Positions 6,543 to 35,706 of a DNA stretch of 45,216 nt are shown here, in pieces (within the stretch, counting starts at the first letter, position 1; each line of letters starts with the position of its first letter). The notes under the pieces were generated by a model. It ran no database searches and was not told the origin of the DNA. It worked only from the letters and a program-made list of their open reading frames with translations. The position numbers and the translations under genes are program-made. Origin of the DNA: Bacteroidaceae bacterium. Its GTDB lineage: Bacteria; Bacteroidota; Bacteroidia; Bacteroidales; Bacteroidaceae. The stretch spans positions 1 through 45,216 of the forward strand of contig JAFRTL010000023.1 of assembly GCA_017427065.1 (NCBI GenBank). Direction: 5' to 3'.

Positions 6543-6547
6543 TACAA

Positions 6548-6577
6548 AAATAGCGAGGACAATGCCTCGCTATTTAG
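6548..6577. terminator. Bidirectional hairpin terminator
   Basis: A perfect 11-bp stem, AAATAGCGAGG (6548-6558) and CCTCGCTATTT (6565-6575), has a 6-nt loop, with A and T tracts on the two sides. It serves ccsA from the left and the small winged-helix gene from the right. Confidence 0.9.
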
Positions 6578-6581
6578 TTTT

Positions 6582-6788
6582 TCATGCTATCAGATAATAG
6601 ATACATCCAGATTCTCTTCGTTGGGTCAACTTGCCCTCTTGCATTAACTGGCCTATAGCCAAACAAAGATCTGTGTCATTCAGATGGCTCTGTCCTTGCA
6701 AATCATCGAAAGAATACTGACTTGTCTTCTTCATGACAGCATACAGTTTTCTACTGTTGTTAACGATACTCTCTTTGTTGAACATCAT
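6582..6788 (-). CDS. Small winged-helix protein (DUF2582-like)
   Basis: A 68-residue protein with the pattern of a single winged helix-turn-helix: an N-terminal helix (NKESIVNNSRKLYAVMKK), a short YSFDDLQG turn, a helix pair (LNDTDLCLAIGQLMQEGKL) and a two-strand wing (TQRRESGCIYYLI). It resembles the DUF2582 group of small bacterial wHTH proteins, whose role is unknown; DNA binding is inferred. Two adjacent ATGs (6788 and 6785) are possible starts. An unusually good AGGAGG (6798-6803) sits 9 nt before the first. Confidence 0.6.
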   Translation of the reverse strand: MMFNKESIVNNSRKLYAVMKKTSQYSFDDLQGQSHLNDTDLCLAIGQLMQEGKLTQRRESGCIYYLIA

Positions 6789-6828
6789 AGTTTAAATCCT
6801 CCTCGTGTTTATGTTTGTTTCACTTCGT

Positions 6829-6859
6829 CAAATTTAAGAAAAAGATTTTATATATCAAA
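6829..6859 (-). promoter_or_regulatory. Promoter of the winged-helix gene
   Basis: Read on the minus strand, TTTG (6856-6859) and TAAATTTG (6829-6836) are 19 nt apart, an exact Bacteroidetes promoter about 40 nt before the start codon. Confidence 0.65.
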
Positions 6860-6921
6860 TACTTATATGTTAAAAAGATGATACTTTTAAAAAAATGGTA
6901 TAAAAAGTCAGTTATTTAGCA

Positions 6922-18808: not shown

Positions 18809-19246
18809 ATGGAAGAATATATCCCAAAACCTATCGACCTGAGCGACGTATCGCTGACAGACGACCTCATCGAACTGCGTGAAGCCATAGCTGAGAATGC
18901 CCACGAAATCTGGGCAGAGAACCGTAGGCTGGAAGGATGGACCTATGGTCCTGTGCGTGATGACAAGAAGAAGCAGACGCCTGATATGGTGCCCTACAAA
19001 GACCTGTCGGATGGCGAGAAGGAGTACGACCGTGCCACTGCCATGCGTTCCATCAAATTGCTGAAGAAGCTGGGTTACGATTTGGTGAAGGTTCAGGAGA
19101 CTGCACTCTATAAAGAGATGATCGAGCGCATCCGCAACAGCAAGGAAGAGTATCACTGCAGCAACTGTGGTGGCTATATCTTCAAGCATCAAGTATTCTG
19201 CGAGCACTGCGGACATAAGATTGAAAAGAGCGATTGGGAGGATTGA
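18809..19246 (+). CDS. RyR domain protein with C-terminal zinc ribbon
   Basis: A 145-residue soluble protein. Residues 15-95 are an unmistakable RyR domain: ENAHEIWAENRRLEGWTYG, then RDDKKKQTPDMVPYKDLSDGE, KEYDRATAMRSIKLLKKLGY. RyR is the short repeat found in ryanodine receptors and in scattered bacterial proteins, where it is proposed to bind nucleotide-type ligands. The C-terminus has four zinc-ligand cysteines, C117-x2-C120 and C131-x2-C134. The ATG at 18809 follows the promoter directly; an earlier in-frame start would lie in the terminator. The membrane-protein gene begins 3 nt after its stop, so the two are one operon, and a second RyR protein is encoded convergently just beyond. Confidence 0.88.
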   Translation: MEEYIPKPIDLSDVSLTDDLIELREAIAENAHEIWAENRRLEGWTYGPVRDDKKKQTPDMVPYKDLSDGEKEYDRATAMRSIKLLKKLGYDLVKVQETALYKEMIERIRNSKEEYHCSNCGGYIFKHQVFCEHCGHKIEKSDWED

Positions 19247-19249
19247 TGA

Positions 19250-20608
19250 ATGTTTGACGACATCCTCGCTTACATCTTGCCTGCCATATCAGTAGGCACT
19301 GTACTTGGGGCTGTATTTACAGTGGTGCTGACATTCTTTATCTTGTCGTTGCCACTGCGATTGCTTATCGTCTATTCCAATAATTATAAGGTAGCCATCT
19401 TTTGCAGAAAGTTGGCCGATTGGCTGTTGCTGTTTATCCTCGCGGTGGTGGTGCTACAGTCGCTCTCAGCTTCTATCCAGGCATCCTTGTATCTCCTTTC
19501 CGATGAAAATGTATTCATAGGTATGATGGAACGTGTCATCGCAGCGCTGATGACTCTCCCACCATTCTACCTGATTGTGAAGCACATGGTCAACAAGGTA
19601 GAGTTTTATGAGGCCAAGCATCAGAAATACCTGGAATACTTCATTCTCTATCTGCGCAGCTTCAAGGACGACAAGAAAACCAAGTCGGAGAAGAAGCTGA
19701 TGAAAGCCTTGAAGCGTCTCTATTACCCTTTTGCCATAGGCAGGCCCAACGAGTTCATGCCTCAGCAAGGTGCCAAGCGCATCTATGTGGGAGAGGACTG
19801 GAGGCAGGTCGTGATAGAGCTTCAGAAGAAGGCACCACTGATTCTGCAACGGGTGAATACCAGCGAGAACTTCCTGTGGGAATTCGACCAGTGTGTACAG
19901 GGTGGACATCTGCCAAAAGTACTTTTCTGGGTGGCTGATTACCAGGAATATGCGCAGTTCCGTGAGCTTATAGCTAGCAAGTATGGGCTAGTTTTCCCTG
20001 AGTTGGATGCCCGCATGAAGTGTGAGCAGGTGTTCTATTACCTGCCTGATGGCAGTTTCCGCATCTATGCCTTGAAAGATGATCAGGCTTACCATGATCT
20101 GGCGAAGAGTTACCTCAAGGACCATCCCATGCACAAGGAGCAATACAAGGATTACCTCTATGGACGTAGTTGGTGGAAACAGTTAGGACTGGCCTTCCGT
20201 AGGACGTACGACAAGCACATCATGCCAGGTGTGAACCGTTGGAGCTGGATAGGCTTTCTCTGTGCCGATTTCTATCTGATTTGCCAACCCATCAAGTGGC
20301 GCATCCTCTGGTATGGCATACTGATGACCATGCCTTTACTGTGCATTCACGCCAATGTCAGTTGGTGGTACATGAGCATCATGTATGGACTTCTTTCTTT
20401 GGTGATGGGAAAGAACGGCCGCACTCTGGTATGGGTATCGCAGAAGTGGGAGAGTGTGGCCCTCTTCAACAAGAGTGTACATAGTCGCAATGTCCTGGTC
20501 GTAATCCTAGGCATTGGCAGAGTCCTCATAGGCGTGGGCATCTGGTTCTTCCTGCTGTTCAACCCCTTCGGATGGGACCTTCCGCACTTCCCGTTCGCCT
20601 TCTGGTAA
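19250..20608 (+). CDS. Multi-pass membrane protein with a possible TIR-like domain
   Basis: A 452-residue protein. About three hydrophobic segments lie in residues 5-112, a soluble domain spans about 112-320, and three or four more membrane segments follow (IGFLCADFYLICQPI, LMTMPLLCIHANVSWWYMSI, VLVVILGIGRVLIGVGIWFFLLF). The soluble part carries YLRSFKDD, then IGRPNEFMPQQGAKRIYVGEDW and LILQRVNTSENFLWEFDQ. I have a sense of this RSFxDD...GRP-E...G...LWE pattern from bacterial membrane proteins. The order of elements recalls TIR folds, with the WE glutamate in the place of the NADase glutamate; that is inference from pattern only. Operonic with the RyR-zinc ribbon gene and convergent with the RyR channel gene. 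Confidence 0.6.
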   Translation: MFDDILAYILPAISVGTVLGAVFTVVLTFFILSLPLRLLIVYSNNYKVAIFCRKLADWLLLFILAVVVLQSLSASIQASLYLLSDENVFIGMMERVIAALMTLPPFYLIVKHMVNKVEFYEAKHQKYLEYFILYLRSFKDDKKTKSEKKLMKALKRLYYPFAIGRPNEFMPQQGAKRIYVGEDWRQVVIELQKKAPLILQRVNTSENFLWEFDQCVQGGHLPKVLFWVADYQEYAQFRELIASKYGLVFPELDARMKCEQVFYYLPDGSFRIYALKDDQAYHDLAKSYLKDHPMHKEQYKDYLYGRSWWKQLGLAFRRTYDKHIMPGVNRWSWIGFLCADFYLICQPIKWRILWYGILMTMPLLCIHANVSWWYMSIMYGLLSLVMGKNGRTLVWVSQKWESVALFNKSVHSRNVLVVILGIGRVLIGVGIWFFLLFNPFGWDLPHFPFAFW

Positions 20609-20615
20609 TCCCAGC

Positions 20616-22619
20616 CTATTGCAGCTTCTGCTTGATGATCAGTGGCAGGCATCGCACCATGATGCGGTCCAAATCCTTCGAATATTCCGACAGATCCTCA
20701 TACGGACGAATGTCCTGATGGATGAACAGCAGACGGCACAGTTTGCGTATAGACTCATCCGTCTCCATGTGTTCCAGAATCTTGTCGTCAGGCTTGCGGA
20801 ACCCTAAGAGCAGCTTCTCCATGCTCCAGCGGTTGTGCTCCACCTGTGCGATGGTGTTCACCTCATCCTCTGTCAGAGTCTCTGGACACCTGTTCTCGTC
20901 ATACCCCAGCGCACGCAGCTTAGGCCCTATGGAGTAGCTGTTATAGTAATTGCTCCACTGCAAGGCCACAGGCAATTGTATCCAGAGGTTGTGCATCGTC
21001 TTCTCGTCAGGCAGCTCCGTAGGCGTGGCATTGTGCTTGAAGAAATAGTCGTAGATATAGTTGATGGTCTGTGCCACCTGTATTTCGCGACTGTTCAGGT
21101 CGAAGTAGTTGTCCATCATGCCAAATGGGAACAGATGGCTGAACTTCGACACCTTGTCCTCCTTCCACTCGCAGTTCAGCATGCTCAGCAGGGCAGCTGA
21201 CGACTGTTGTTGCAGCAGGATAGGGATGTTGCGCTCATACACCACGTCAGGCAGGTAAAGCCCCACGTCCATGTTCAGCCTAGGCTTCTTCAGGCAGACG
21301 GCTATGGTCAGCAGCTGACCCTCGTCACAGGCCCACTGAGCCAACAGTTGCTGTATGGCTACCGATTCTGCCCTGGCCTTGATAAACTCAAAATGAATAT
21401 CCAGAAAGTCGGCATCCTTCCCTTTGAACAGGGTAGGAGGCAATACCTGTTCCTCCCCCGTGCCACTCTCATAGTCGCGGTAGGTCGATGACATGATCTG
21501 GAACAGATGGCGATAGCGGTTCTTGAAGATATCCATCTCCCTGTCCGCATGGATGTCGATAAAAGTGATACGCGTTTTCAGTTCCTTGTTCTTGAAGTAG
21601 TTGGGGAAGTGCATCAGATGAGCAGCTTCCGTGCCCAGCGCCACCCCTAAGCGGCTCATGCCGAGGATGGCCAGATGCACGTATTTCTGACAGTCGGGCC
21701 CCATCTGCTCCCTGTCCAGAGGCGGATACTCCGTCTTGCTGTAGCCATCGGTATAGAAGCGGCTGATGAGCACCTTCTTCGCCCAACCCTCGTAGAAGTT
21801 GAACGGACGGAATTCGATGTACTTGCGCCACTCCTCAGCCAAGTCAGTCACCTGGAACACAGAGAACGTGTTATGGTAAGCAAAGAAGACGGTAAACGGA
21901 ATGATGGGGCAGTCCTTCGCCCGCTTATGAATCTCCACGATCTTCTTCAGACAGTCTATGTTCATCGAGTCATGATCCACTTCATCACGATTACCTATCA
22001 CGAACACTTCACGAGCCTTCGTTGTACAGAGTCGTTGCAGGTCCTCCTCCGAGTCACGACGGGCGTTTGCCATCAGCACGCGCCCCTCCTGCTTCTTAGG
22101 CAGATTACGGTCTATGTAACCCTTCACCGTCTGGGCAGGCTCTGTGGTCTGCACCAAGATGTGGCAACCTTTATAGCGAGGGTCGCGACAGATCTGGGCA
22201 ATCAGTGAAGGCACCATCTCGTCGAACCCGATGATCACCACGTGGTTCTTCAGCTTATAAGAAATACCACCTTCCTTGAAATTCTCCACATGGCGTTGCA
22301 ACATGTTTGATATCACAGAGATAAGGCAGCCACCAAAGAGGATGGTACCTATCAAGGCCAAGATCTGAGCCACCAAGTGATGGTCGGCCGAGACATAATC
22401 CACAGCACCCGGATCGATGAGCAACTGGAACAGGCGCTGATGCCACGTCAGGCCACTCAGGTCGTTATACGTAGCCCCTGAGATGAAGAAGAAATGCATC
22501 AGCCATCCTATGATGAAAACCAGCACAATGGCAGCCACCAGCCAAGCCAACTGTTTCCAGCCTTGAGCAGCAAAAGTGCGGTCGAAAAGTATGCGGAATC
22601 TCTGTATAATGTTTCTCAT
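20616..22619 (-). CDS. CASTOR/POLLUX-like ion channel with C-terminal RyR domain
   Basis: A 667-residue protein. Two membrane helices (residues 24-47 and about 82-104) flank a pore-like segment with LLIDPGAVDY (DPGA at 69-72), as in bacterial CASTOR/POLLUX relatives. A first RCK/TrkA-N nucleotide-binding domain begins at about 125 (HVVIIGFDEMVPSLIAQIC) and a second at about 315 (VHLAILGMSRLGVALGTEAAHL). The C-terminal 100 residues hold a RyR-type domain (VEHNRWSMEKLLLGFRKP, HNRW at 595-598). The likely role is a ligand-gated cation channel in the inner membrane; ion selectivity is unknown. The gene is convergent with the RyR/TIR-like operon, 7 nt between stops, and has its own promoter. Confidence 0.82.
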   Translation of the reverse strand: MRNIIQRFRILFDRTFAAQGWKQLAWLVAAIVLVFIIGWLMHFFFISGATYNDLSGLTWHQRLFQLLIDPGAVDYVSADHHLVAQILALIGTILFGGCLISVISNMLQRHVENFKEGGISYKLKNHVVIIGFDEMVPSLIAQICRDPRYKGCHILVQTTEPAQTVKGYIDRNLPKKQEGRVLMANARRDSEEDLQRLCTTKAREVFVIGNRDEVDHDSMNIDCLKKIVEIHKRAKDCPIIPFTVFFAYHNTFSVFQVTDLAEEWRKYIEFRPFNFYEGWAKKVLISRFYTDGYSKTEYPPLDREQMGPDCQKYVHLAILGMSRLGVALGTEAAHLMHFPNYFKNKELKTRITFIDIHADREMDIFKNRYRHLFQIMSSTYRDYESGTGEEQVLPPTLFKGKDADFLDIHFEFIKARAESVAIQQLLAQWACDEGQLLTIAVCLKKPRLNMDVGLYLPDVVYERNIPILLQQQSSAALLSMLNCEWKEDKVSKFSHLFPFGMMDNYFDLNSREIQVAQTINYIYDYFFKHNATPTELPDEKTMHNLWIQLPVALQWSNYYNSYSIGPKLRALGYDENRCPETLTEDEVNTIAQVEHNRWSMEKLLLGFRKPDDKILEHMETDESIRKLCRLLFIHQDIRPYEDLSEYSKDLDRIMVRCLPLIIKQKLQ

Positions 22620-24386: not shown

Positions 24387-24743
24387 ATGAAAGGATTAAC
24401 CAACAAAGAAGAAGAGGCTATGAACCATTTTTGGGAACATGGTCCCATGTTTGTGACGGATATGCTCGAACTCTATCCCGACCCCAAGCCCCATTTCAAC
24501 ACCCTCTCCACCGTGGTACGTGGTTTGGAAGAAAAAGGCTACGTGTCGCACCATGCCTACGGCCCCTCTTTCCAGTACTACGCAGCTGTGAGTCGTGAGG
24601 AGTTCAGCAAGCGCACCCTGAAGAGCGTCATCAGTAAGTATTTCAACAATTCCTACCTTGGTGCCGTCTCCTCCCTCGTCGAAGAAGAAGACCTCTCCCT
24701 CGATGATCTAAAGAAACTGATAGAAGCAGTCGAAAAACATTAA
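24387..24743 (+). CDS. BlaI/MecI/CopY family transcriptional repressor
   Basis: A 118-residue winged-helix repressor: LTNKEEEAMNHFWEHGPMFVTDMLELYP, then PHFNTLSTVVRGLEEKGYVSHHAYGPSFQYYAAVSREEF (recognition helix and wing), and a C-terminal dimerisation helix region (LVEEEDLSLDDLKKLIEAVEK). The family represses its own operon until cleaved after activation of a BlaR1-type sensor protease. The sensor gene follows 63 nt downstream, so the pair is a complete two-gene sensor/repressor unit of the kind common in Bacteroidetes, generally not linked to beta-lactamase. Confidence 0.92.
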   Translation: MKGLTNKEEEAMNHFWEHGPMFVTDMLELYPDPKPHFNTLSTVVRGLEEKGYVSHHAYGPSFQYYAAVSREEFSKRTLKSVISKYFNNSYLGAVSSLVEEEDLSLDDLKKLIEAVEKH

Positions 24744-24797
24744 TTGACAATTCACAATTGACAATTCACAATTCACAATTGATTTAATTCTCAATTT
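24741..24797. repeat. AATTGACAATTCAC short tandem repeats
   Basis: The gap between blaI and the BlaR1 gene is filled by repeated AATTGACAATTCAC and AATTCAC units. A 25-nt stretch (24756-24780) is identical to the reverse complement of 40703-40727 inside the DUF3987 gene. Confidence 0.85.
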
Positions 24798-24806
24798 TAT
24801 AAAATA

Positions 24807-26897
24807 ATGGGAACCTTCTTAGTTTATATAATAAAATCAGCGCTTTGCCTCATAGCCTTCTACCTCTTCTACAAAGTGTTGCTCAGCCGTGAGACGTTCT
24901 ACCGTTTCAACCGCTTTGCCTTGCTCAGCCTCATGGCCTTCTCTGCCGTGCTGCCCCTGGTGCAGATCTCGCTGAAGTCCGAAGTAGGGCAGACCATCGT
25001 CAGTGTAGAAGACTGGCTCGTCGAGGTGGTCAGCGTGGAGGAGGCCGCTCCCGTACTCACATGGCCACAGGCATTGGTGCTCATCTACCTCATAGGCGTG
25101 CTGTTCTTCGTCCTGCGACAAGCCTATTCCGTCGTCCGACTGCTACAGCTGCTCCGCAAGGGCAAGAGGGTAGATGCAGGGCTCTATCTCCCTGAGGCAG
25201 AAGGCATCCACCTCATCGCTGTAGATGAAAAGCTGGCACCCTTCAGTTGGATGAACTACATCGTTGTCAGCGAGAATGATTTGCATGAGAATGTCCGCGA
25301 GATACTGCTGCATGAGAGCGCCCACATCCGTCATCACCATTCGTGGGACCTGCTCGTAGCAGAAGTCTGCATCTTCCTGCAGTGGTTCAATCCCGCTGCG
25401 TGGCTCCTGAAGCAAGAGCTCCAGACCATCCATGAATACGAGGCCGATGACTGCGTGCTGCGTGAAGGCATCGATGCCCGCCATTACCAATTATTGCTAA
25501 TAAAAAAGGCTGTTGGCACAAGGCTCTACTCTATGGCCAACAACCTGAATCACAGTAATCTTAAAAAACGTATCACTATGATGATGAAAAGAAAATCCAA
25601 TCCATGGGCACGCCTGAAGTACGCCTACGTGCTTCCGTTGGCAGCCATTGCCGTGGCCGCCTTTGCCCGTCCCGAGGTGCAAAACGCCTCCAGTGAGATT
25701 TCTGCCGTCAAAGTTAATGATTTGGTAGGAAATCTGGTAACAAATCTGGAAGAAAATTTCACCCTTCTCGATGCCAACGTTCAGCTGCCTCAAGACAGCA
25801 TCTATGAAATCGTAGAAGTCATGCCCATCTTCCCAGGTGGCGAAGCAGGTATGATGAAGTACCTTTCAGACAATATCAAGTACCCCGAAGAAGCTATGAA
25901 GGCAGACATCGAGGGACGTGTGTTCACTCGTTTCATCGTCAACGAAGATGGCTCTGTGAGCGATGTGGAGATTCTTAGAAGCGTTCATCCATTGCTCGAT
26001 GCCGAGGCTATCCGTGTAGTGAAGGCCATGCCTAAATGGACACCTGGAAAAGTTGGTGGCAAGGCTGTGAAAGTGAGATATTCATTGCCTCTCGTTTTCC
26101 GTCTGCAAGGTGAAAGCACTCCTCAAAACAATACCCCAGTGGCCAATAAAATTGGCAAAGACGGCATTTATGAGATAGTTGATACGCCACCTATCTATCC
26201 TGGTGGTGAGGCTGCGTTGCTGAAGTTTGTTTCAGACAATATCAAGTACCCAGAAGAAGCTTTCAAGGCAGGAACCCAGGGACGTGTGACGACTATCTTC
26301 ATCATCAATGAAGATGGCTCTGTGAGTGATGTGGACGTTGTAAGGAGCGTTCATCCGTTGCTCGATGCTGAGGCAGTTCGCGTAATAAGCTCTATGCCGA
26401 AGTGGACGCCAGGAAAAGCTGGTGGCAAAGCTGTCAAAGTGAGATTTACGATGCCTGTTACTTTCAGGCTGCAGGGTGGTGAAAGCACTTCTCAAACCAA
26501 TGCCCCAGTGGCAAAGCTCTCCAAAACCCCTGAATATGTAGGTGGCGATAAAGCCTTATATACCTTCTTAGCACAGAATATGAAATATCCCACAGATGCA
26601 CAAGAAGCAGGTGTTCAGGGTAGGGCAGTCGTTGAGCTTACCATTGCTGCAGATGGCAGTATGGTCAATCCGCATGTTACCAGCTCTGTACATCCACTCC
26701 TTGAAAAGGAAGCGCTCCGCGTAGTAAGCATGCTGCAGCGTTGGAACCCAGCTGTGAATGAAAATGGTCAGGCCGTGAGTGCTACCATAACGCTGCCTTT
26801 CAGCTTCTTCGTTACAGATGCCAATGGCAACATCACCCAGCGTGATAAGTCTGTAGAGTCTAAGAATGAAATCATTGTCGTAGGAAAAAGCATTTGA
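24807..26897 (+). CDS. BlaR1-type M56 peptidase with three TonB C-terminal domains
   Basis: A 696-residue inner-membrane protein. Residues 1-300 form the M56 sensor: several membrane helices, the zinc motif H169-E-S-A-H173 and the downstream HEYEADD (209-215) that supplies the third ligand. After a last helix near 280 (YVLPLAAIAVAAFA), three periplasmic TonB C-terminal domains follow at about 332-433, 454-553 and 571-660. Each has a proline/glycine opening (MPIFPGGEAG, PPIYPGGEAA, TPEYVGGDKA), NIKYPEEA or NMKYPTDA, and the VHPLLDAEA/W(T/N)P core. It should sense something in the periplasm and cleave the partner repressor; the TonB domains may contact outer-membrane receptors or peptidoglycan. 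Confidence 0.88.
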   Translation: MGTFLVYIIKSALCLIAFYLFYKVLLSRETFYRFNRFALLSLMAFSAVLPLVQISLKSEVGQTIVSVEDWLVEVVSVEEAAPVLTWPQALVLIYLIGVLFFVLRQAYSVVRLLQLLRKGKRVDAGLYLPEAEGIHLIAVDEKLAPFSWMNYIVVSENDLHENVREILLHESAHIRHHHSWDLLVAEVCIFLQWFNPAAWLLKQELQTIHEYEADDCVLREGIDARHYQLLLIKKAVGTRLYSMANNLNHSNLKKRITMMMKRKSNPWARLKYAYVLPLAAIAVAAFARPEVQNASSEISAVKVNDLVGNLVTNLEENFTLLDANVQLPQDSIYEIVEVMPIFPGGEAGMMKYLSDNIKYPEEAMKADIEGRVFTRFIVNEDGSVSDVEILRSVHPLLDAEAIRVVKAMPKWTPGKVGGKAVKVRYSLPLVFRLQGESTPQNNTPVANKIGKDGIYEIVDTPPIYPGGEAALLKFVSDNIKYPEEAFKAGTQGRVTTIFIINEDGSVSDVDVVRSVHPLLDAEAVRVISSMPKWTPGKAGGKAVKVRFTMPVTFRLQGGESTSQTNAPVAKLSKTPEYVGGDKALYTFLAQNMKYPTDAQEAGVQGRAVVELTIAADGSMVNPHVTSSVHPLLEKEALRVVSMLQRWNPAVNENGQAVSATITLPFSFFVTDANGNITQRDKSVESKNEIIVVGKSI

Positions 26898-27074: not shown

Positions 27075-28217
27075 ATGATGAATAAGAAACTAATTATATT
27101 TGCTTGTATACTAATGACATTCATTGGTTGTAAGCTGGCGAATGACGATGAGTTTATCACGGTTGATGTGGCAGCAAGTGTGCCAGAGAAAGAACTCACT
27201 GTGCAAGACTTCATGGATGTGGAGTATGTGCCACTGGAGACCAACGATGATTTTGTGGTGCCAAACAATGTGGCAGCCATTGGCGAGAGCTACATCGTGA
27301 TGCGTAGTCGTGGCAATGAAGGTTCGCTCTACTTTTTCGACCGTCATAGTGGCAAGGCCCTCCACAAGTTCAATCATCGTGGACAAGGCCCTGAAGAATA
27401 TGCCTATGTGACAGGTGTCATCCTCGATGAGGAGAACCAAGAGGTCTTCATCAATGATGCAGGAACAGCCAAGATGGTGGTCTATGACCTTCAAGGGAGC
27501 TTCAAGCGTAGCTTTGCCCACAGGGAAGGAGGCTACTACATGACGGCAGTCAGTTATGACAGCGACCATCTTATCGTGTATGATGCCTCCCAGATGAGCA
27601 AAGGTGGCGAACCTCGTGATAAGAACTATTACCTTATTATCTCCAAGGCCGATGGCTGTGTTACTGACGAGGTGCCATTGCCCTATGAGACCATCAAGAG
27701 CACTATTGTAACCAGTGGTGAAGTCACTGCAGCCTTCAGTGTAGAAGCCATTGTGCCTTATCAGGATGATTTCCTCATTTGCGAAGCCTCCACAGACACA
27801 ATCTATCGCTATACCCGTCAGCATAAGCTTATTCCCTTCATGGCAATGGAGCCAACTGAGAATCCAGAGCAGGTGCTGGCTATGGGGGCATCTACCCGCA
27901 GGTATCAGTTCTTCACGGCCTTCCGCAAGGAATTGATTATGCCACAGATGATGATACCCTCCACTCCCTTTGTGTATGACAAGGAAGAGCATCGTCCTTA
28001 TGAAGTCACTGTTTATAATGCCGACTTCAAGAGTCCTTTAGAAGTGAGGCTTAACGAAATGAATGCCAATTCTGCCACAGCCTATACTGCCATCAATGCA
28101 GATAAGATAGTCGAAGCCTATGAAGAGGGTAAGCTGCAAGGTCCCCTTTTAGATCTAGCTGCAAGCATTGATGAGGAAGACAATCCCGTGATAATGTTCA
28201 TGAAAGAAAAACAATAA
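27075..28217 (+). CDS. 6-bladed beta-propeller lipoprotein (unit 1, A type)
   Basis: A 380-residue protein with lipobox signal (IIFACILMTFIGC). The family signature is present: VEYVPLETNDDFVV after the signal, the blade motif FNHRGQGPEEYAYVTGVILDEENQEVFINDAGTAKMVVYD and repeated beta blades to the end. These NHL/6-blade proteins of Bacteroidetes are lipid-anchored in the periplasm or outer membrane and their ligands are unknown. The C-terminus (DEEDNPVIMFMKEKQ) resembles the GEDDNPILLIAVLK end of the A-type paralogues. It lies 12 nt before the B-type partner at 28230. Confidence 0.85.
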   Translation: MMNKKLIIFACILMTFIGCKLANDDEFITVDVAASVPEKELTVQDFMDVEYVPLETNDDFVVPNNVAAIGESYIVMRSRGNEGSLYFFDRHSGKALHKFNHRGQGPEEYAYVTGVILDEENQEVFINDAGTAKMVVYDLQGSFKRSFAHREGGYYMTAVSYDSDHLIVYDASQMSKGGEPRDKNYYLIISKADGCVTDEVPLPYETIKSTIVTSGEVTAAFSVEAIVPYQDDFLICEASTDTIYRYTRQHKLIPFMAMEPTENPEQVLAMGASTRRYQFFTAFRKELIMPQMMIPSTPFVYDKEEHRPYEVTVYNADFKSPLEVRLNEMNANSATAYTAINADKIVEAYEEGKLQGPLLDLAASIDEEDNPVIMFMKEKQ

Positions 28218-28229
28218 AATCAGCATACT

Positions 28230-29483
28230 ATGAGAAACATTATAATATTCTGTTCAGTGGCTTTCTGCATGTCACTGCAGACTAGTTGTCAGTCAAGGAA
28301 TGCCTCCGATACATTGGATGAAAGCCCTATTGTAGCAGAGACGAAGACTATAAACAGTGAGGGCGACAGACTGATGGTAATAGATTTCGAGAAGTTCGAT
28401 CGTGAGCATCCCATAGATTTTCCTCTGAGTGATTTTTGTGACTATCGACTAGTAAAACTAGATGGCAGTGATAAAAATTACATGCTCAGTGCAAGTACGC
28501 AGATATGTGCCTCAGATAACTACATAATTGCTAAAAGCATCAACGAGTTACTATTGTTCGACAAAGAAGGTAAACACCTCCTTACCATCGATGGCAGAGA
28601 TGGGCCTGCAGGTTTTGAGGGCTATTGTTGGCAAGCCTCCATCAACGAAGAGGCTGGGGAGATTTATGCCTACCTATTCCGTAAAATGAAAATCTATGAT
28701 TTGAAAACAGGAGCCTATAAGCAAGATATCCTTTATAATAACCCAGAAGAGAGCAGCATGCTACGCTATCCCATTTCTGCCATTTATAAAGATCGTCATG
28801 TGTTTGCTGCAGGTCCTTTAGAGGCAGCTGGTACTAAGAAGTTTATTTGGCAGACAGACAAAACAGGAAAAGAACTATGCAACTTCCCCGCATCTTATTT
28901 TTTTCACATGAGTTGGGTGGAAGACCAGTACGAGGGTCGTTTCTGGATGGAGGCTAAACCATTTTTGTCTTTTGTGGACGATGATTGTCTCTCTGTTTCT
29001 ATGCCCAACATGGAGATCCCTGTGCAAGACAGCATCTACCATTATTATCCAGAAACCAATCGACTGGCACCTGCCATTGTGATGAAATTCCCTGATCCTG
29101 CTCATGCACCACAGCATTTCCATAATGAAACCCCATCATTCTATTTCTCCATGTTGATGGAAGTCAATACCCTACCAACGCAAGGTGATGGATGGGGCAA
29201 TCATCCTGTGGCGCGTCTGCTGGTAGATAAGAAAACCATGCGAGGCAGTGCCGCACAGTTATGTTTGGACAAACACGGAATGTTAGATATAACAGGAGAG
29301 CGTACTTGGATAACTGGAGATTATTTTTGGGTGAACATCACTCCTGATCGTATGGATGAATTAATTGCCAATAGGCTGAATAGTGGCAAAGCCAGTGAGA
29401 GTGACAGAGAGTTTCTAGAATCATTCCTGAAAACTATTGGCCCAGATGACAATAACTATGTGATAGTGGGGAAGTTGAAATGA
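28230..29483 (+). CDS. 6-bladed beta-propeller lipoprotein (unit 1, B type)
   Basis: A 417-residue lipoprotein (signal IIFCSVAFCMSLQTSC). The B-type hallmarks are an early VIDFEKFDREHPIDFPLSDF and a propeller core IDGRDGPAGFEGYCWQASI followed by KMKIYDLKTGAYK. Near the end is a VDKKTMRGSAAQLCLDKHGM segment, and the C-terminal tail is DDNNYVIVGKLK. It is clearly paralogous to 33005-34243 and 35707-36954, but less close to them than they are to each other. It is co-transcribed with the preceding A-type gene. Confidence 0.85.
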   Translation: MRNIIIFCSVAFCMSLQTSCQSRNASDTLDESPIVAETKTINSEGDRLMVIDFEKFDREHPIDFPLSDFCDYRLVKLDGSDKNYMLSASTQICASDNYIIAKSINELLLFDKEGKHLLTIDGRDGPAGFEGYCWQASINEEAGEIYAYLFRKMKIYDLKTGAYKQDILYNNPEESSMLRYPISAIYKDRHVFAAGPLEAAGTKKFIWQTDKTGKELCNFPASYFFHMSWVEDQYEGRFWMEAKPFLSFVDDDCLSVSMPNMEIPVQDSIYHYYPETNRLAPAIVMKFPDPAHAPQHFHNETPSFYFSMLMEVNTLPTQGDGWGNHPVARLLVDKKTMRGSAAQLCLDKHGMLDITGERTWITGDYFWVNITPDRMDELIANRLNSGKASESDREFLESFLKTIGPDDNNYVIVGKLK

Positions 29484-29506
29484 CTATTATCTTGCAATTT
29501 TGGGGA

Positions 29507-29566
29507 CCACTGAACTGTGGACTTAACTGAAAACTTACCAAATTCCTCCTTCTACAGCTATATTTG
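29507..29566 (+). promoter_or_regulatory. Shared propeller promoter/operator module, copy 1
   Basis: Box CCACTGAACTGTGG (29507-29520, itself able to form a small hairpin) is followed by ACTTAACTGAA and, exactly 52 nt from the box start, by the -7 element TATATTTG (29559-29566). Two more copies have the same spacing. Downstream, an inverted repeat CGCAAAC (29568-29574)/GTTTGCG (29584-29590) ends 2 nt before the ATG. Confidence 0.75.
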
Positions 29567-29592
29567 TCGCAAACTTTTAAAATGTTTGCGTT

Positions 29593-30930
29593 ATGAAAAA
29601 GCACTTATTTTATTCCCTCTTGATGCTGATAAGCCTCATGGGATGCAACGCTGCCAAAGCCAATCCAGAATCAGAGGTGGTGGAAGAAGTCGAAGAAGGA
29701 TTGCCAGTGATTAACCTCTCAGAAAACATAGAGGAAGTTTCTGCTCTGAATCTCAGCGATGCAGCAGAGCGTGTGGAGATAGTGAAGTTGGAGACTTCTG
29801 ATAATCTATACTTATCTAATGTGGAAAAAGTAGAAATTACTGATGACAATATCTATGTTAGTACAATGAGAAGTGTATCTGTGTATCGCTTTACCCGTGA
29901 TGGCAAGTTCTTGAATACCATCGGCAAGAGAGGTCAGGGACCAGGTGAATATATATCGTTGGCCGATTTCTTAATAGACAATGATACCAAAGAAATCTAC
30001 ATAGAAACAGGGTCACAAGGTATATTGGTATTTGACTTTGAAGGGCATCTCAAAAGATATGCAAACAAAGAATGGCCTGAAAAGCTGTTTGATGGTGTAT
30101 ATGCTAAGTTAGTGGTATATAAAGGGAATTACTTAGTCTTTAGGAATATACCAGTGTTTCAGATGTCTCACCCTAATGATCCACTATGGTCAGTAGCTAT
30201 CACTGATAACACTTTTACCAAACAGAAAATATTCAAGAATCCTGCACATATAGGTCATGAAAAAGACATCCTGTCTGATGAACATAGAGGACATGGGGAA
30301 GGATGGTATCAATATTGGAGAGAAGAGCTGACTACAGTTGATTTTACAAATAATGAGCTTACATTCAAACTTCCAGATACAGATACCATCTATGTCTATG
30401 AGACATCAACACAAACATATAAGCCTAAATATTCCATTTATACTGGTGAAGAAAAGGGAGATTATGAACTGATGCATGAGTGGGTAAAGCAAAGAAAGTC
30501 TTTTGACTATTACACTTATGGTAGTTATCATCCAACTCCCACCAGTATATATTTCATAGGTAGTAAAGGTGAACAGATATATACTTATCGCTATGATAAG
30601 ACGAGTCACTCTGTAAGTATGGTAAAGCGTAAGGGGATAATAACTGAGAGAAAAGATCCATTTGTACAACATTATGGCCGTCCGCTCTTAAGGTTAGAGC
30701 GTAACTTTATCCTAACTAATGACATAAATGGTGGTGACTTCTTGGCAAAATTCCGTTCTAATGGGAGATACTGGATTCAACCTTTAATCCCTGGTTCTTC
30801 CGATTATGAGAAATTTGTGGAAGGCCTAAAGAAAGCCCCCGCTGCTCCACAGAAGCAGCAGCTGCTGGATGTGATAGCGAGGACAGGGGAGGACGATAAC
30901 CCGATACTTCTAATTGCCGTGCTAAAATAG
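29593..30930 (+). CDS. 6-bladed beta-propeller lipoprotein (unit 2, A type)
   Basis: A 445-residue lipoprotein (MKKHLFYSLLMLISLMGC). After an acidic linker it carries INLSENIEEVSALNLSDAAERVEIVKLET, the strand pattern of this family, then IGKRGQGPGEYISLADFLIDNDTKEIYIETGSQGILVFDFEG. The C-terminus KKAPAAPQKQQLLDVIARTGEDDNP-ILLIAVLK matches the unit 4 paralogue at 34375. The first 200 nt are also very close to that gene while the middle is divergent. No B-type partner follows; a terminator and the ORF6N gene occupy its place. Confidence 0.85.
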   Translation: MKKHLFYSLLMLISLMGCNAAKANPESEVVEEVEEGLPVINLSENIEEVSALNLSDAAERVEIVKLETSDNLYLSNVEKVEITDDNIYVSTMRSVSVYRFTRDGKFLNTIGKRGQGPGEYISLADFLIDNDTKEIYIETGSQGILVFDFEGHLKRYANKEWPEKLFDGVYAKLVVYKGNYLVFRNIPVFQMSHPNDPLWSVAITDNTFTKQKIFKNPAHIGHEKDILSDEHRGHGEGWYQYWREELTTVDFTNNELTFKLPDTDTIYVYETSTQTYKPKYSIYTGEEKGDYELMHEWVKQRKSFDYYTYGSYHPTPTSIYFIGSKGEQIYTYRYDKTSHSVSMVKRKGIITERKDPFVQHYGRPLLRLERNFILTNDINGGDFLAKFRSNGRYWIQPLIPGSSDYEKFVEGLKKAPAAPQKQQLLDVIARTGEDDNPILLIAVLK

Positions 30931-31000
30931 TATTTCCTCCAAAAGTAAGAGGGCTTCGGTGTGATCACTGAAGATTTTTGCGACTTATTAGGGGGATACA

Positions 31001-31037
31001 AAGAATCCCGATGCAAACTTTGCGTCAGGATTCTTTT
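31001..31037 (+). terminator. Terminator after unit 2
   Basis: AAGAATCCCGATGCA (31001-31015) pairs with TGCGTCAGGATTCTT (31021-31035) with one mismatch and one G-U, then T tract. Its sequence is closely related to the hairpin after the ORF6N gene. Confidence 0.85.
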
Positions 31038-31151
31038 TTCCCATATCGCTGGTGAAACCAAAATTGTAAAAATAATATGGAATAGTTTGTATTAATTATT
31101 ATTTGAACTATTTTTGTCGCCGAATTGCAAACCATTAAAATAAAAACGGCA

Positions 31152-31721
31152 ATGAATGAAATCGAACTAATCCAAAACAAAATCTATGAGATTCGAGGCC
31201 AGCGCGTCATGCTGGACCGTGATTTAGCAGAATTATATGGAGTTGAGACCAAGCGTCTGAATGAACAAGTGAAACGTAATATCGAACGTTTCCCTATAGA
31301 CTTCATGTTCCAACTGACAGAAAAGGAAATGGAAGATTGGAAGTCGCAATTTGCGACATCCAATTCAATTAAAATGGGTTTACGCAAACGACCTTTAGCA
31401 TTTACTGAAAGTGGCGTAGCTATGCTCAGTAGTGTGTTGCATTCATCATTAGCAATTCAGGTTAATATTGGAATCATGCGAGCCTTTGTAACACTGAGAC
31501 AAATGTCAGTCCTTCCATTACCAGAAAACAATGCGGAACTACGAGCCGAGATTCAAGCTTTACGAAAAGAATTGAATGACATTCTTCGTGATCAGAACGA
31601 CATCAACGAGGAAACCCGAATGCAGCTGGATGCCATCACTATCGCCCTTGCAGAGCTGCAAGCAAAGCCCAAGGAAGAGAAACCTCGCCGTCGCATTGGT
31701 TTTATCCAAGATGACAAATAG
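31152..31721 (+). CDS. ORF6N domain protein
   Basis: A 189-residue protein with the ORF6N domain typical of phage and mobile-element DNA-binding proteins: IYEIRGQRVMLDRDLAELYGVETKRLNEQVKRN, then RFPIDFMFQLTEKE and KRPLAFTESGVAMLSSVL. A coiled-coil tail follows (LRAEIQALRKELNDILRDQNDINEETR) with a basic end (KPRRRIGFIQDDK). The ATG at 31152 fits the domain start better than an upstream TTG. The gene stands alone between units 2 and 3 of the propeller array, framed by two related hairpins, and looks like an insertion. Its role is probably transcriptional control or phage-related; nothing more can be said. Confidence 0.85.
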   Translation: MNEIELIQNKIYEIRGQRVMLDRDLAELYGVETKRLNEQVKRNIERFPIDFMFQLTEKEMEDWKSQFATSNSIKMGLRKRPLAFTESGVAMLSSVLHSSLAIQVNIGIMRAFVTLRQMSVLPLPENNAELRAEIQALRKELNDILRDQNDINEETRMQLDAITIALAELQAKPKEEKPRRRIGFIQDDK

Positions 31722-31726
31722 CATAG

Positions 31727-31762
31727 AAGAATTCCGATGCAGTCTTTGCATCGGAATTCTTT
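31727..31762 (+). terminator. Terminator after the ORF6N gene
   Basis: A perfect 15-bp stem, AAGAATTCCGATGCA (31727-31741) and TGCATCGGAATTCTT (31747-31761), has a 5-nt loop, followed by T. It is nearly the same hairpin as at 31001-31035. Confidence 0.9.
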
Positions 31763-31795
31763 CTCACATACAACTTGTCAGACCACTTCTTGACC

Positions 31796-31855
31796 CCACT
31801 GAACTGTGGACTTAACTGAAAAAGCACCAATTTCCTCCTCCCACAGCTATATTTG
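31796..31855 (+). promoter_or_regulatory. Shared propeller promoter/operator module, copy 2
   Basis: CCACTGAACTGTGG (31796-31809), the CTTAACTGAA half and -7 TATATTTG (31848-31855) are at the same 52-nt spacing as copy 1. The start-proximal inverted repeat is CGCAAAC (31857-31863)/GTTTGCG (31873-31879), 2 nt before the ATG. Confidence 0.75.
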
Positions 31856-31881
31856 TCGCAAACTTTTAAATTGTTTGCGTT

Positions 31882-32991
31882 ATGAAGAATTACTTATTTT
31901 ATTCTTTCCTGATGCTGATAAGCCTGTCGTTTTATGCATGCTCATCTCAGAATAAGAAGACTGAGGAAACTGTATCTAAGGCTCTTTCTGAAGAAAATCC
32001 GATAGAGCAGAAAAAAGAACTGCCTCCATTAGAAGAAGGTGAAGTGTTCTTGAAAGGAGAGCATCCTTTCGGTGATGAAATACCATTGACAGGGCATCAT
32101 GTAGAAGAGGTAGATACATTTATTTTCAAGCCACAAGAACCTCGCATGATTATAGAGGGTGATAGGCTTTACATGAGTAGTATGGGGGCTCCCTATTTTG
32201 TGTTCAACTTCCCTGAACTAACATATAGGCAGACGATTGGTACAGTTGGTAATGGTCCCGATGAATTCTTCCTACCTTATGTGCTTAAGTCACCAGACGG
32301 CATTAATTCGTGCTATTTATATGAAAGGAGTAGAAATAACCTTTATGGACTTGATGCTCATGGAGAGATGCATTTCATCAAGAAGCTGTTCGATGGTAAG
32401 TCGCCTTTCGGAGAGACAGAGAATCTATATGCCATAGACGACCATACGTTCATGTATGTCAAAAATGCCATTATGCGATTGACAATAGAAGGGGATAGCA
32501 TTGTGACGAAAGATATATACCCTCTGCGCCTTAAAAACGCCAGAGGGGTGCCAATCACTGGTACATTTGCAGTAAACCCTACTCATAATAGGATGGTTTA
32601 TGCTTACAAATATGCCAAGATTGTCAAGTTTATGGATCTTGAAGCACAAACTATCCGCACATTGAATTTTCAGCAATCTTCATTTGATGAGAAAACGCTC
32701 AATATCGCAGATGGGTTGGATCAAAATGTGACTTATTATATGGAAGCTATTCCTACAGAAGATTACGTATATATCACCTATTCTGGTCGTACTCCGATGG
32801 TTGTGGCCAATGAAGTAAACAAGGGGAATCGATATATGTATATAGAAAAATATGACTGGAATGGGAATCCCATCAGTATTTATAAATTGAATGAGTTTTC
32901 CGTATATCCTGCTATAGATGAAGATTCCCTCCAACTGGTTCTTTGCTGCTATTACTATGATGATCCTTTTGTGGTATTCCATTTGGAGTAA
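31882..32991 (+). CDS. Divergent beta-propeller lipoprotein (unit 3, first gene)
   Basis: A 369-residue lipoprotein (MKNYLFYSFLMLISLSFYAC; lipobox FYAC). After a charged linker, the body is a TolB-like 6-blade protein: MIIEGDRLYMSSMGAPYFVFNF, then IGTVGNGPDEFFLPYVLKS and a series of strands up to the C-terminal LQLVLCCYYYDDPFVVFHLE. It shares the promoter module and the signal-peptide style of the A-type genes but not their body or tail, so it belongs to another branch. It precedes a B-type gene by 13 nt in the same transcript. Confidence 0.8.
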   Translation: MKNYLFYSFLMLISLSFYACSSQNKKTEETVSKALSEENPIEQKKELPPLEEGEVFLKGEHPFGDEIPLTGHHVEEVDTFIFKPQEPRMIIEGDRLYMSSMGAPYFVFNFPELTYRQTIGTVGNGPDEFFLPYVLKSPDGINSCYLYERSRNNLYGLDAHGEMHFIKKLFDGKSPFGETENLYAIDDHTFMYVKNAIMRLTIEGDSIVTKDIYPLRLKNARGVPITGTFAVNPTHNRMVYAYKYAKIVKFMDLEAQTIRTLNFQQSSFDEKTLNIADGLDQNVTYYMEAIPTEDYVYITYSGRTPMVVANEVNKGNRYMYIEKYDWNGNPISIYKLNEFSVYPAIDEDSLQLVLCCYYYDDPFVVFHLE

Positions 32992-33004
32992 ACATTGAAA
33001 TGAT

Positions 33005-34243
33005 ATGAAAACAGACCTGAATTTAGCATTATTAGTAGGAACTTGCAGCCTGATAATGGCTGGCTGTAGCTCAAAGACAGGGGAGGGCGTTACGCTGGAC
33101 GACTGCCCCGTGGTGGCAGAGAGAGTGCCGTTGAAGAACGGTACAGACTCCCTGATAGTGGTGGACTATGATAACTTCGACTTCGACCATCCCATAGATT
33201 TCCCGCTCAGTGAGTATTGCGACTATGAGATTGTGCAGTTGGAAGGTAGCAGCAAAGACATTATGGTGGGGGCAGGTAGAGTCTACTCACACGGTAACTA
33301 CTTAGTGTGGATAAACAATATGAGTCTAAGGATCCTAATCTTCGACAGGCAAGGGCACTATGTCTCTACCATCAACGGGGGAGAGGGGCCTGGAAATTTC
33401 GAGATGGTCTGCAACTCTGTCTATATCGATGAAGAGAAAGGGGAACTCTATGCCAACTTGCCAAGGAGTACCAAAGTCTATGACTTGAAAACGGGAGAGT
33501 TCAAACGCTCCATAAACCAGGGATCTACCTACTACCTCATGTCGGCACCCTATAAGGATAAGCTGATCTATAGCCATACCCCACTGTATAATTATGAAAA
33601 GGTCATCTGGATAGAAGATAAAGAGGGTAACGTGGAGCAGACCTTCCCTGCATCTTATTTCTGGAATATGGACATTGTGGACCCTATCTATGGCGAAAGT
33701 TTCTGGGTAGATGCCGAGTCCGTCCTGCTGGATGTAGGAGAAGACTATTACATGTATTCCCTCTTTTACTATCTCACGGAACGAGACAGCACTTACCATT
33801 ATTACCCAGCTACCAACAAGCTGATACCTTCTGCTACGCAGGTGAACTATGTGAAGAAGAACGATGGTGACTATTACGGTCAGGAAGAAACGCCCTCTTA
33901 TTATTCTGCGATTTACGTGGAACGTGGGAAGATTATTCCGCAGTATGGTACCTATGAACACTATGTAGCCCATCGTGTGATAGTAGATAAGAAGACCTTG
34001 AAAGGCAGCGCCATCAATCTGTGTGTGGACAAGCTGGGAATGATAAACATAGGGCAGGATTACTGGATTACCAGTAATGGTGACTTCTGCCTCAATCTGC
34101 CTCCAGATATCCTGATGCAACGCATAGAAGAGCGTCTGAACAAGGGTGGCCTGGATAGTGATGAGTGGCTGAAGCTCCGTACGCTCTATGATTCCATCGA
34201 TGATGACGATAATAACTATGTAATAGTGGGGAAACTGAAATAG
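33005..34243 (+). CDS. 6-bladed beta-propeller lipoprotein (unit 3, B type)
   Basis: A 412-residue lipoprotein (ALLVGTCSLIMAGC). B-type features: VVDYDNFDFDHPIDFPLSEY, the core INGGEGPGNFEMVCNSVYIDEEKGELYANLPRSTKVYDLKTGEFK, then VDKKTLKGSAINLCVDKLGM and the tail DDDNNYVIVGKLK. Its first 200 nt are nearly identical to those of 35707, after which identity falls sharply, a pattern expected from recombination between paralogues. Predicted periplasmic or surface lipoprotein of unknown ligand. Confidence 0.85.
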   Translation: MKTDLNLALLVGTCSLIMAGCSSKTGEGVTLDDCPVVAERVPLKNGTDSLIVVDYDNFDFDHPIDFPLSEYCDYEIVQLEGSSKDIMVGAGRVYSHGNYLVWINNMSLRILIFDRQGHYVSTINGGEGPGNFEMVCNSVYIDEEKGELYANLPRSTKVYDLKTGEFKRSINQGSTYYLMSAPYKDKLIYSHTPLYNYEKVIWIEDKEGNVEQTFPASYFWNMDIVDPIYGESFWVDAESVLLDVGEDYYMYSLFYYLTERDSTYHYYPATNKLIPSATQVNYVKKNDGDYYGQEETPSYYSAIYVERGKIIPQYGTYEHYVAHRVIVDKKTLKGSAINLCVDKLGMINIGQDYWITSNGDFCLNLPPDILMQRIEERLNKGGLDSDEWLKLRTLYDSIDDDDNNYVIVGKLK

Positions 34244-34287
34244 TAATCCTACCATCCAGACAAGTCGAATAACACTAAGGAAGCCAT

Positions 34288-34347
34288 CCACTGAACTGTG
34301 GACTGAACTGAGAACGTAACGTTTCAGCCCTTCCTATGCTATATTTG
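34288..34347 (+). promoter_or_regulatory. Shared propeller promoter/operator module, copy 3
   Basis: CCACTGAACTGTGG (34288-34301), then GACTGAACTGA and -7 TATATTTG (34340-34347), again 52 nt from box start to -7. The start-proximal inverted repeat is degraded here (GCAAAC against TTTTACG), which separates the conserved upstream box from the less conserved hairpin. Confidence 0.7.
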
Positions 34348-34374
34348 CAGCAAACTATTAAAATTTTTTACGCT

Positions 34375-35700
34375 ATGAAGAAGCACTTATTTTATTTTTT
34401 CCTCATGCTGATAAGCCTCACGGGATGTAATGCTGCCAAAGCTAATCCAGAAGCAGAGGAAGTGGAAGAAGGTCTGCCTGTGATTAACCTCTCGGAGAAT
34501 GTGAAGGAAGTTTCTACTCTGAACCTCAGTGATGCTGTGGAGAAGGTTGAAATTGTGAAACTGGAAACTACTGACAAAAGCCTGATTAGAAGAGTTGATA
34601 AGATTGAAGTCACAGAGAATGATATTTTTATTCAAAACGGCTTGACGAATATTCTACACTTCTCTCGAGATGGTAAGTTCCTGAATACTATAGGGAAGGT
34701 AGGGCAGGGTCCTGCTGAATATCCACAATTAGGAGATTATATTGTAGATGACTCAAGAAAAGAAGTTTATATCATATCTTTTACAACGGGTATTCAAGTT
34801 TATGATTATGAGGGTAATCATCTTCGAAGGGAATATAAACAGAGTGTCAGTAGGCTTTTCTCAACAGGATATTACGAAATGTTTCGATATGACAACACTT
34901 GGATGTCAAAGCAAAATACTACTGTTTTGGATGGCATGATTAGCAACCCGAAGGATTCGCTATGGTCTTTTGCTGTATTTGATGATGAATTCAACAAACA
35001 ATATCTGTTTAAGAATCCAGCTCATATAGGAAGGGAAGAAGAAATTGTTAATCATGGATATAACAATACAGAAATGTGGCCGAATCCTTGGTGGGAGAAT
35101 ACGACAGTCTTTGATTTATATAATGATGAGCTAACAATAAAGTTCCCTGATACAGACAGCATCTATATTTATAAAGACAAAGCATTAGAGCCATTGTATG
35201 CTATCGAGACTAATGAAGAAAAAGGCGATTACGGATTGACACATGAAATGTATAAATTGCGCCGGGCTTTCAACTATTTTGACCTTGTTAATTATTATCG
35301 TTCAAAAGACTATATCTATTTAATAGGAAATAAAGATGAAATAATATATACCTACGCCTACAGTATCAAAGATCACTCTGTCAGATTATGGAAACGTCAA
35401 GGAGAAATCGAAGCAAGTGGCATGCAAAGAATGATAGATGCGATAGGTAGGGATTTCTTGAATCTCCGTTGTAATTTCATCCTTGCAAATGATTTGAATG
35501 GTGGAAGTTTTTATGCTCGCTATCGCTCACAAGGCAAATGCTGGATATATCCTTTGCAGCCAGACACAGAGGACTATGAGAAGTATGTGGAAGAATTGAA
35601 GAAATCACCTGATGCTCCCCAGAAGCAGCAGCTACTTGATGTGATTGCAAATACGGGAGAGGAAGACAACCCAATTTTGCTGATTGCTGTTTTAGAATAA
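34375..35700 (+). CDS. 6-bladed beta-propeller lipoprotein (unit 4, A type)
   Basis: A 441-residue lipoprotein starting MKKHLFYFFLMLISLTGC; the ATG at 34375 follows the promoter module, and a longer in-frame reading would include the -7 box. It has INLSENVKEVSTLNLSDAVEKVEIVKLET, IGKVGQGPAEYPQLGDYIVDDSRKEVYIISFTTGIQVYDYEG and the C-terminal LKKSPDAPQKQQLLDVIANTGEEDNP-ILLIAVLE. It is the closest relative of the unit 2 A-type gene. The B-type partner starts 6 nt after its stop. Confidence 0.85.
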   Translation: MKKHLFYFFLMLISLTGCNAAKANPEAEEVEEGLPVINLSENVKEVSTLNLSDAVEKVEIVKLETTDKSLIRRVDKIEVTENDIFIQNGLTNILHFSRDGKFLNTIGKVGQGPAEYPQLGDYIVDDSRKEVYIISFTTGIQVYDYEGNHLRREYKQSVSRLFSTGYYEMFRYDNTWMSKQNTTVLDGMISNPKDSLWSFAVFDDEFNKQYLFKNPAHIGREEEIVNHGYNNTEMWPNPWWENTTVFDLYNDELTIKFPDTDSIYIYKDKALEPLYAIETNEEKGDYGLTHEMYKLRRAFNYFDLVNYYRSKDYIYLIGNKDEIIYTYAYSIKDHSVRLWKRQGEIEASGMQRMIDAIGRDFLNLRCNFILANDLNGGSFYARYRSQGKCWIYPLQPDTEDYEKYVEELKKSPDAPQKQQLLDVIANTGEEDNPILLIAVLE

Positions 35701-35706
35701 GACGCT

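Follow-up and report, generated by a model that had tools for sequence, protein, structure and literature searches.

A three-gene locus of a gut-type Bacteroidaceae bacterium (assembly GCA_017427065.1, contig JAFRTL010000023.1) may encode a ligand-gated ion channel accompanied by ligand-handling proteins, and the full scheme set out below is given a probability of about 0.42. The locus lies in a window of 45,216 nucleotides (nt), the whole stretch of DNA that was analysed, and is composed of three open reading frames (ORFs), all present in the sequence: RyRzf (18809..19246, forward strand, 145 amino acids (aa)), with an RyR domain and a C4 zinc ribbon; TIRm (19250..20608, forward strand, 452 aa), a membrane protein whose soluble domain is conserved; and CHAN (20616..22619, reverse strand, 667 aa), a predicted two-transmembrane (two-TM) channel with an RCK gating region and an RyR-like domain at its C-terminus. 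TIRm begins 3 nt past the stop codon of RyRzf, and the two therefore probably share one transcript; CHAN is convergent with them, and 7 nt (20609-20615) separate the stops, as an original prediction made without database searches had described.

The families of these proteins, their conserved residues, the recurring pairings of their genes and the purifying selection acting on them are read directly from the sequences. RyRzf is most likely soluble and represents an RyR class of its own; it may bind, buffer or cleave a nucleotide.

An RCK channel with an RyR-like C-terminus

Hydropathy gives CHAN two hydrophobic segments, between which an IDPGA stretch lies; TM1, the putative pore segment and TM2 together span 22308..22538 on the reverse strand (aa 28-104), the pore being placed from A3, an alignment and profile of 20 CHAN homologues. 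The best matches of this profile in the PDB are DMI1 (7vm8, 6e-5) and CASTOR (6o6j, 7e-4), and the region concerned is the first RCK domain (21900..22256, reverse strand, approximately aa 122-240); in Pfam, Slo-like_RCK matches 12 of the 20 homologues at E up to 0.1. Judged by these comparisons, CHAN is a CASTOR/DMI1-like two-TM RCK channel. The original prediction had called two RCK domains, of which the first is borne out together with the pore stretch, and the second is read from a sequence pattern in the alignment, with no match to a solved structure. CASTOR is described as a Ca2+-regulated Ca2+ channel without a TVGYG filter (PMC6697748). CHAN shares the RCK channel plan of the plant proteins CASTOR, POLLUX and DMI1, but differs from them in its RyR-like C-terminal domain and its RyR neighbours.

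The RyR-like domain occupies aa 551-667 (20619..20969, reverse strand) and is supported by profile comparison and by a quartet of invariant residues, in agreement with the channel-borne RyR domain originally proposed. CHAN alone stays below the gathering cut-off of the Pfam RyR family PF02026 (12.3 bits, E 0.2), and with E values of 0.1 or less RyR matches 4 of the 20 homologues, in one case via an N-terminal RyR fusion. Compared with 20 RyR domains by hhalign, aa 551-667 cut from A3 gave E 9.6e-6 at a probability of 63%, and the re-aligned C-terminus E 3.3e-4 at 17%; controls against the same RyR profile reached 0.069 or worse for ten other CHAN slices, 0.054 for a set of TIR domains and 0.48 for TIRm. 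Seven residues (E594, H595, R597, W598, L603, H634 and D651) are invariant in 20/20 homologues.

Four of these bear on the ligand. According to a 2026 preprint, the phage RyR protein RyDEP cleaves 2'/3' cyclic ADP-ribose (cADPR) by means of H75 and D117, with W78 bracing the adenine and H100 holding the phosphates (PMC13232231). The quartet H595, W598, H634 and D651 of CHAN falls on the positions of H75, W78, H100 and D117, a mapping made by the HxxW motif and spacing and not by the sequence of RyDEP itself; residues were transferred between RyRzf and CHAN through the hhalign alignment. With 2'/3'cADPR as a ligand or substrate of RyR domains from phages, the earlier idea of an NAD-derived ligand takes a concrete form. 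Unlike RyDEP, the RyR-like domain of CHAN is bacterial and part of a channel.

A search across the phylum found CHAN in 19 of 296 genomes, its own included, and wide stretches were taken for 11 of the other 18. At ten of these loci (L191-L200) the significant match ends after the first RCK domain and no RyR gene lies nearby, and these are accordingly counted as CASTOR-like channels of the ordinary kind; at the eleventh, L201, an RCK-like protein contains two stretches resembling RyR. L049 has, beside a full channel gene, a relative of CHAN that lacks the pore (5463-6902, corresponding to CHAN residues 292-662), and similar short matches were seen in genomes G113 and G127.

The domain could also serve plain ion homeostasis. 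Repeat12 of animal ryanodine receptors binds ADP and AMP-PCP (PMC12627627), which makes simple ATP sensing possible. There, too, an RyR domain is tied to a cation channel, and RyRzf keeps the adenine-stacking Trp and the phosphate-binding basic residues; the channel architecture differs from that of CHAN, the shared part being the RyR domain. In a housekeeping role, the RyR domain of CHAN would sense ATP, ADP or NAD status and RyRzf would act as a regulator, with no part in immunity. Consistent with this, the scanned neighbours in the window are metabolic or envelope genes by Pfam, and in genome G535 an ORF matching Na_H_Exchanger (L204 5604-7055, 1.3e-52) runs in the same direction as CHAN and overlaps its start by 4 nt, hinting at joint ion transport. 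The patchy distribution argues otherwise, with CHAN or RyR in none of 12 sampled genomes of the same genus, as do the TIR, SIR2 and STAND genes in the vicinity of some of the relatives and the distant CASTOR-like channels just described, which have RyR beside 0/10 loci. On balance this housekeeping explanation is a possible one that leans towards the unlikely side.

RyRzf and the classes of RyR domains

The RyR domain of RyRzf (18818..19084, forward strand, aa 4-92) passes the PF02026 gathering cut-off with 107.9 bits against 27.4 (E 3.1e-31). It is followed by a CxxC...CxxC zinc ribbon (19148..19228, forward strand), which zinc-ribbon models match at aa 114-138/140 below threshold (Zn_ribbon_3, 1.4e-4), so that the soluble RyR-zinc ribbon protein named in the original prediction is recovered with a sub-threshold ribbon. 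Its relatives in the PDB are 3nrt, 4n05 and 6uag, each labelled 'putative ryanodine receptor', plus RyR1-3; unlike the bacterial protein 3nrt, RyRzf has the zinc ribbon added. The searches of PADLOC returned only weak Csx1 and CARF matches (0.015 and 0.016).

Residues 32, 35, 57 and 74 of RyRzf have a spacing identical to that of RyDEP H75, W78, H100 and D117. Both proteins belong to PF02026, and H32, W35 and D74 fit H75, W78 and D117, whereas T57 takes the position of His100; the C-terminus of CHAN fits all four. Furthermore, RyRzf W35, R39 and R50, all kept, fit Trp880, Lys884 and Arg895 of RyR3, which hold AMP-PCP (PMC12627627), the fit being made through PDB-match coordinates in which RyR3 848 equals RyRzf 3.

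The residue at the His100 position distinguishes two classes of RyR protein. The fetched loci supplied 45 RyR stretches, among them two fragments, and in this survey all ten full zinc-ribbon forms resemble the window in this respect (Thr in nine, Ser in one). Forms without a zinc ribbon and with fewer than 100 residues ahead of the domain, among which the CHAN fusion of genome G160 is counted, carry His in 25/26 and Asn in 1/26, and the full C-terminal RyR fusions are mixed (His 4/7, Thr 2/7, Asn 1/7). A zinc-ribbon form adjoins a His-type form in three loci (L047, L052 and L084). Lacking the phosphate His, RyRzf may therefore bind another ligand, or bind without cutting.

An origin in counter-defence was also considered, in which RyRzf would be a phage-derived sponge or hydrolase blunting foreign ADP-ribose signals. 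Phage RyR proteins act in this manner against Thoeris (PMC13232231), and the PHROG families that RyRzf resembles (best 6e-11) have no known function. RyRzf, a bacterial protein with a zinc ribbon, is however found in synteny in three genomes and stands beside TIRm and CHAN, not beside recognised phage genes, and no relative of CHAN was found in the viral contigs scanned. We regard this origin as very improbable.

Co-occurrence, synteny and selection

The association of the genes was assessed in a family sample of 201 genomes, in which RyR was counted when over the Pfam cut-off. CHAN was present in 30 genomes, RyR in 29 and both in 22, where 4.3 were expected (Fisher's test without correction for kinship, 5e-17). 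The two share a contig in 15 genomes and are no more than 2 kb apart in 13. G160 has its nearest RyR fused to CHAN, and a separate RyR is also found within 2 kb. Among the 20 fetched CHAN loci, eight contain an RyR protein. TIRm was found in two family genomes (G000 and G160), both of which also have CHAN and RyR.

From the side of TIRm, an RyR gene is directly upstream in 7/9 close-relative loci; in six it encodes the 145-aa form with a zinc ribbon and in one (L095) RyR alone. These close relatives come from Bacteroidales assemblies, several of them labelled ruminant gut. Two further genomes carry all three genes in synteny with the window, at identities of 93-94% for RyRzf, 83-90% for CHAN and 55% for TIRm. 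The co-occurrence beyond this strain that had been anticipated is thus found, and, because the orthologues are arranged in the same way in two other genomes, the locus is more than a chance cluster. Values of dN/dS against the window range from 0.03 to 0.17 over the trio, indicating purifying selection. The fast divergence of TIRm was weighed as a sign of arms-race selection, but with a dN/dS of 0.09-0.17 and saturated dS an exchange for another TIRm lineage would explain it just as well.

As RyR-TIRm and RyR-CHAN also occur apart, the trio is best described as a composite of two recurring pairs. This leaves room for two separate modules, RyR-TIRm on one side and RyR-CHAN or CHAN alone on the other, which became convergent neighbours by chance. 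Each pair is indeed found without the third partner, CHAN is convergent and not in line with RyRzf-TIRm, and the identity of TIRm across the syntenic genomes is well under that of the other two proteins. The arrangement is nevertheless kept in three genomes, the sole RyR match of the window's own genome adjoins both TIRm and CHAN, and among distant loci L119 joins RyR with a TIRm-like gene and L115 a CHAN-like C-terminus with a TIRm-like gene; chance neighbourhood of two modules seems distinctly unlikely.

The soluble domain of TIRm

TIRm has three N-terminal hydrophobic segments, the third of them weak, and one at the C-terminus, with a basic soluble part in between. The RSFKDD (136-141), GRPNE (164-168) and LWE (209-211) landmarks that had been pointed out are all present. 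The soluble domain (19547..20149, forward strand) is predicted by AlphaFold2 as an alternating alpha/beta fold (pLDDT 88.9, pTM 0.83) and is widespread, occurring in 43 loci from many phyla; the alignment A4 lacks three of these loci (L131, L134 and L135), for which the comparison of loci gave no TIRm row. Across the 43 aligned domain sequences, that of the window among them, F138, G164, G174, W184 and E211 do not vary, and the model places Glu211 (19880-19882) in the helix following the LILQR strand.

That this domain is related to TIR domains or nucleoside deoxyribosyltransferases (NDTs) is an unproven suggestion, drawn from profile comparison and the model. Alone, TIRm matched nothing significantly in Pfam, NCBIfam, PADLOC or the PDB. 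Against 28 TIR domains hhalign gave a weak match (E 0.0057-0.006, probability 6%, about 50 columns), with 0.9 and no alignment in global mode, and against nine TIR domains (A6) 0.092 at 0.6%. The larger set joins 19 TIR_2 domains to the nine of A6 (24 matches, 21 extracted, L171 and L166 dropped), and A6 includes L111 and L115, whose TIR call is our own reading. The comparison with NDTs (8/9 matches; L189, with an internal stop, was left out) gave 0.007 locally and 0.024-0.026 globally, and the positive control, TIR against NDTs, 4e-8. No SLOG model appeared among the Pfam matches of the 43 sequences, a result that includes no comparison with a dedicated SLOG profile. The PDB matches of the TIRm profile to designed TIM barrels (best 2.9e-5) and to 'anti-bacteriophage protein B' (8zue, weak, 0.88) were not taken as meaningful.

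The soluble domain of TIRm may instead be of some other alpha/beta kind and serve for binding or as a structural element, the ligand coming from elsewhere. The TIR Pfam model matches 0/43 domain sequences at E 0.1, the TIRm profile finds no TIR in the PDB, and its hhalign match to TIR is no better than the local one to NDTs. Yet hhalign places the invariant Trp-Glu on the conserved TIR Glu, unrelated controls reach only 0.13-0.72, and the strand and helix order of the model and the place of its Glu would fit TIR and NDT folds. A domain unlike TIR is a serious alternative, falling somewhat short of an even chance.

The genome itself, 83% complete, has four TIRm genes, one RyR match and one Nuc_deoxyrib_tr gene elsewhere, and no match there to TIR_2, TIR or ThsB_TIR (PF13676, PF01582 and PF08937). 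With this complement, should the genome use a TIR-type signal, TIRm would be the likeliest candidate for its source. Directly upstream of distant TIRm-like genes lies a conserved protein 111-114 aa long, in L111, L115, L119, L123 and L037; no Pfam match was found for it in L037 and L111, the two scanned.

Gene neighbourhood and defence context

The neighbours of CHAN were surveyed in 125 ORFs within 5 kb of the 20 homologues; a 126th (L050:9957-13826) was left out for size, and ORFs shorter than 110 aa, including small RyR genes, fall outside the set. The commonest Pfam families are TIR_2 (5), RyR (4) and PrsW protease (3), and most of the ORFs match none of them. In L048, CHAN is accompanied by a C39-like-RyR protein, the C39 label deriving from a weak match in the L037 homologue, together with SIR2-TIR and nSTAND1-WD40 proteins. 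In L037, PrsW adjoins CHAN, with TIR-FGE and a TIRm-like gene about 9 kb away. Both loci have a sigma-factor-like ORF before the C39-like-RyR fusion (L037 4919-5506 and L048 8350-8907), by our reading and with no significant Pfam match. Distant TIRm-like genes have similar company: a SIR2 and a WD40 protein, the latter TIR-WD40 by our reading, in L111; a further protein that we read as TIR-WD40 in L115; a protein kinase, TIR-FGE and more TIRs in L119; and Macro-TIR in L123. TIR, SIR2, Macro or STAND genes thus lie close to some relatives, in keeping with the TIR-type company originally named for bacterial RyR domains.

These genes recall Thoeris, in which a TIR synthase acts with a cADPR-type effector; common to both is the notion that a signal derived from NAD opens the effector. 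Here, unlike in Thoeris, the effector would be an RCK channel. No recognised ThsB-type TIR or ThsA was found in the window, and PADLOC matched neither TIRm nor CHAN. Among the 29 other proteins of the window its matches with E values of 1e-10 or below are limited to three PDC-S05 candidate models (best 2.9e-57), each hitting a single protein, which leaves the suspected defence island without backing.

Elsewhere in the window, 24387-26897 encodes a BlaI-type repressor and then a BlaR1-type M56 peptidase in which three stretches match TonB_C, and 27075-36951 is a tandem array of paralogues in which 6/7 scanned ORFs are DUF5128 (6-bladed beta-propeller) and one is TolB_like; ORF 31125-31721 was outside the Pfam scan.

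Proposed mechanism

In the scheme given a probability of about 0.42, the C-terminal RyR domain of CHAN would bind an adenine-containing nucleotide, most likely of the ADP-ribose type, for instance a cADPR isomer, and binding would move the RCK ring and the pore. TIRm, through its putative TIR/nucleosidase-like domain, predicted cytoplasmic and with one invariant Glu, would be a candidate source or sensor of the nucleotide. RyRzf would bind, buffer or cleave the same or a related nucleotide and so end or limit the signal. A trigger, be it stress or phage, would lead to ion flow through CHAN and leave the cell depolarised or arrested. We infer the identity of the ligand, the gating, the catalysis by TIRm and the physiological role from the features described above.

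A number of observations weigh against this scheme. In the preprint, binding was seen for 6/8 phage RyDEP homologues, and cleavage for none of the others tested (PMC13232231), so that RyR homology alone is no proof of cADPR binding. Repeat12 binds adenine nucleotides, which allows for plain ATP sensing, and RyRzf, with its dyad and adenine Trp retained, has Thr in place of the phosphate His. RyR over the cut-off is missing in 8/30 CHAN genomes of the family sample and CHAN in 7/29 RyR genomes. Moreover, 28/30 CHAN genomes have no TIRm, and CHAN was seen in 2/8 close-TIRm genomes and in none of the remaining six, whose assemblies may be incomplete, which weakens the case for an obligate trio. 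The three TIRm paralogues of the genome adjoin ordinary genes, its Nuc_deoxyrib_tr gene means that TIRm is not the sole conceivable nucleoside enzyme, and PADLOC found no known defence system in the window. To these are added the negative TIR searches with TIRm.

A more far-reaching version would make the locus an immune effector arm whose output is ion flow: a cation channel gated by a cADPR-type messenger via its RyR domain, an RyR protein handling the signal and a membrane TIR-like protein making the messenger. We hold it to be unlikely.

Conclusions

The locus gives bacterial RyR proteins a testable role. In the literature searched, no recognised description of an RyR-bearing bacterial RCK channel was found, with the reservation that absence there is not absence from print. 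The direct action of cADPR on ryanodine receptors is a long-standing question. The RyDEP preprint likewise raises it (PMC13232231). The question would become testable in a simple system, a small bacterial channel that carries its own RyR domain with conserved residues fitting those by which cADPR isomers are held. If the proposed reading is true, ion channels would join the effectors of NAD-derived signalling in bacteria, and the coupling of an RyR domain, an ADP-ribose signal and a cation channel would exist outside animals.

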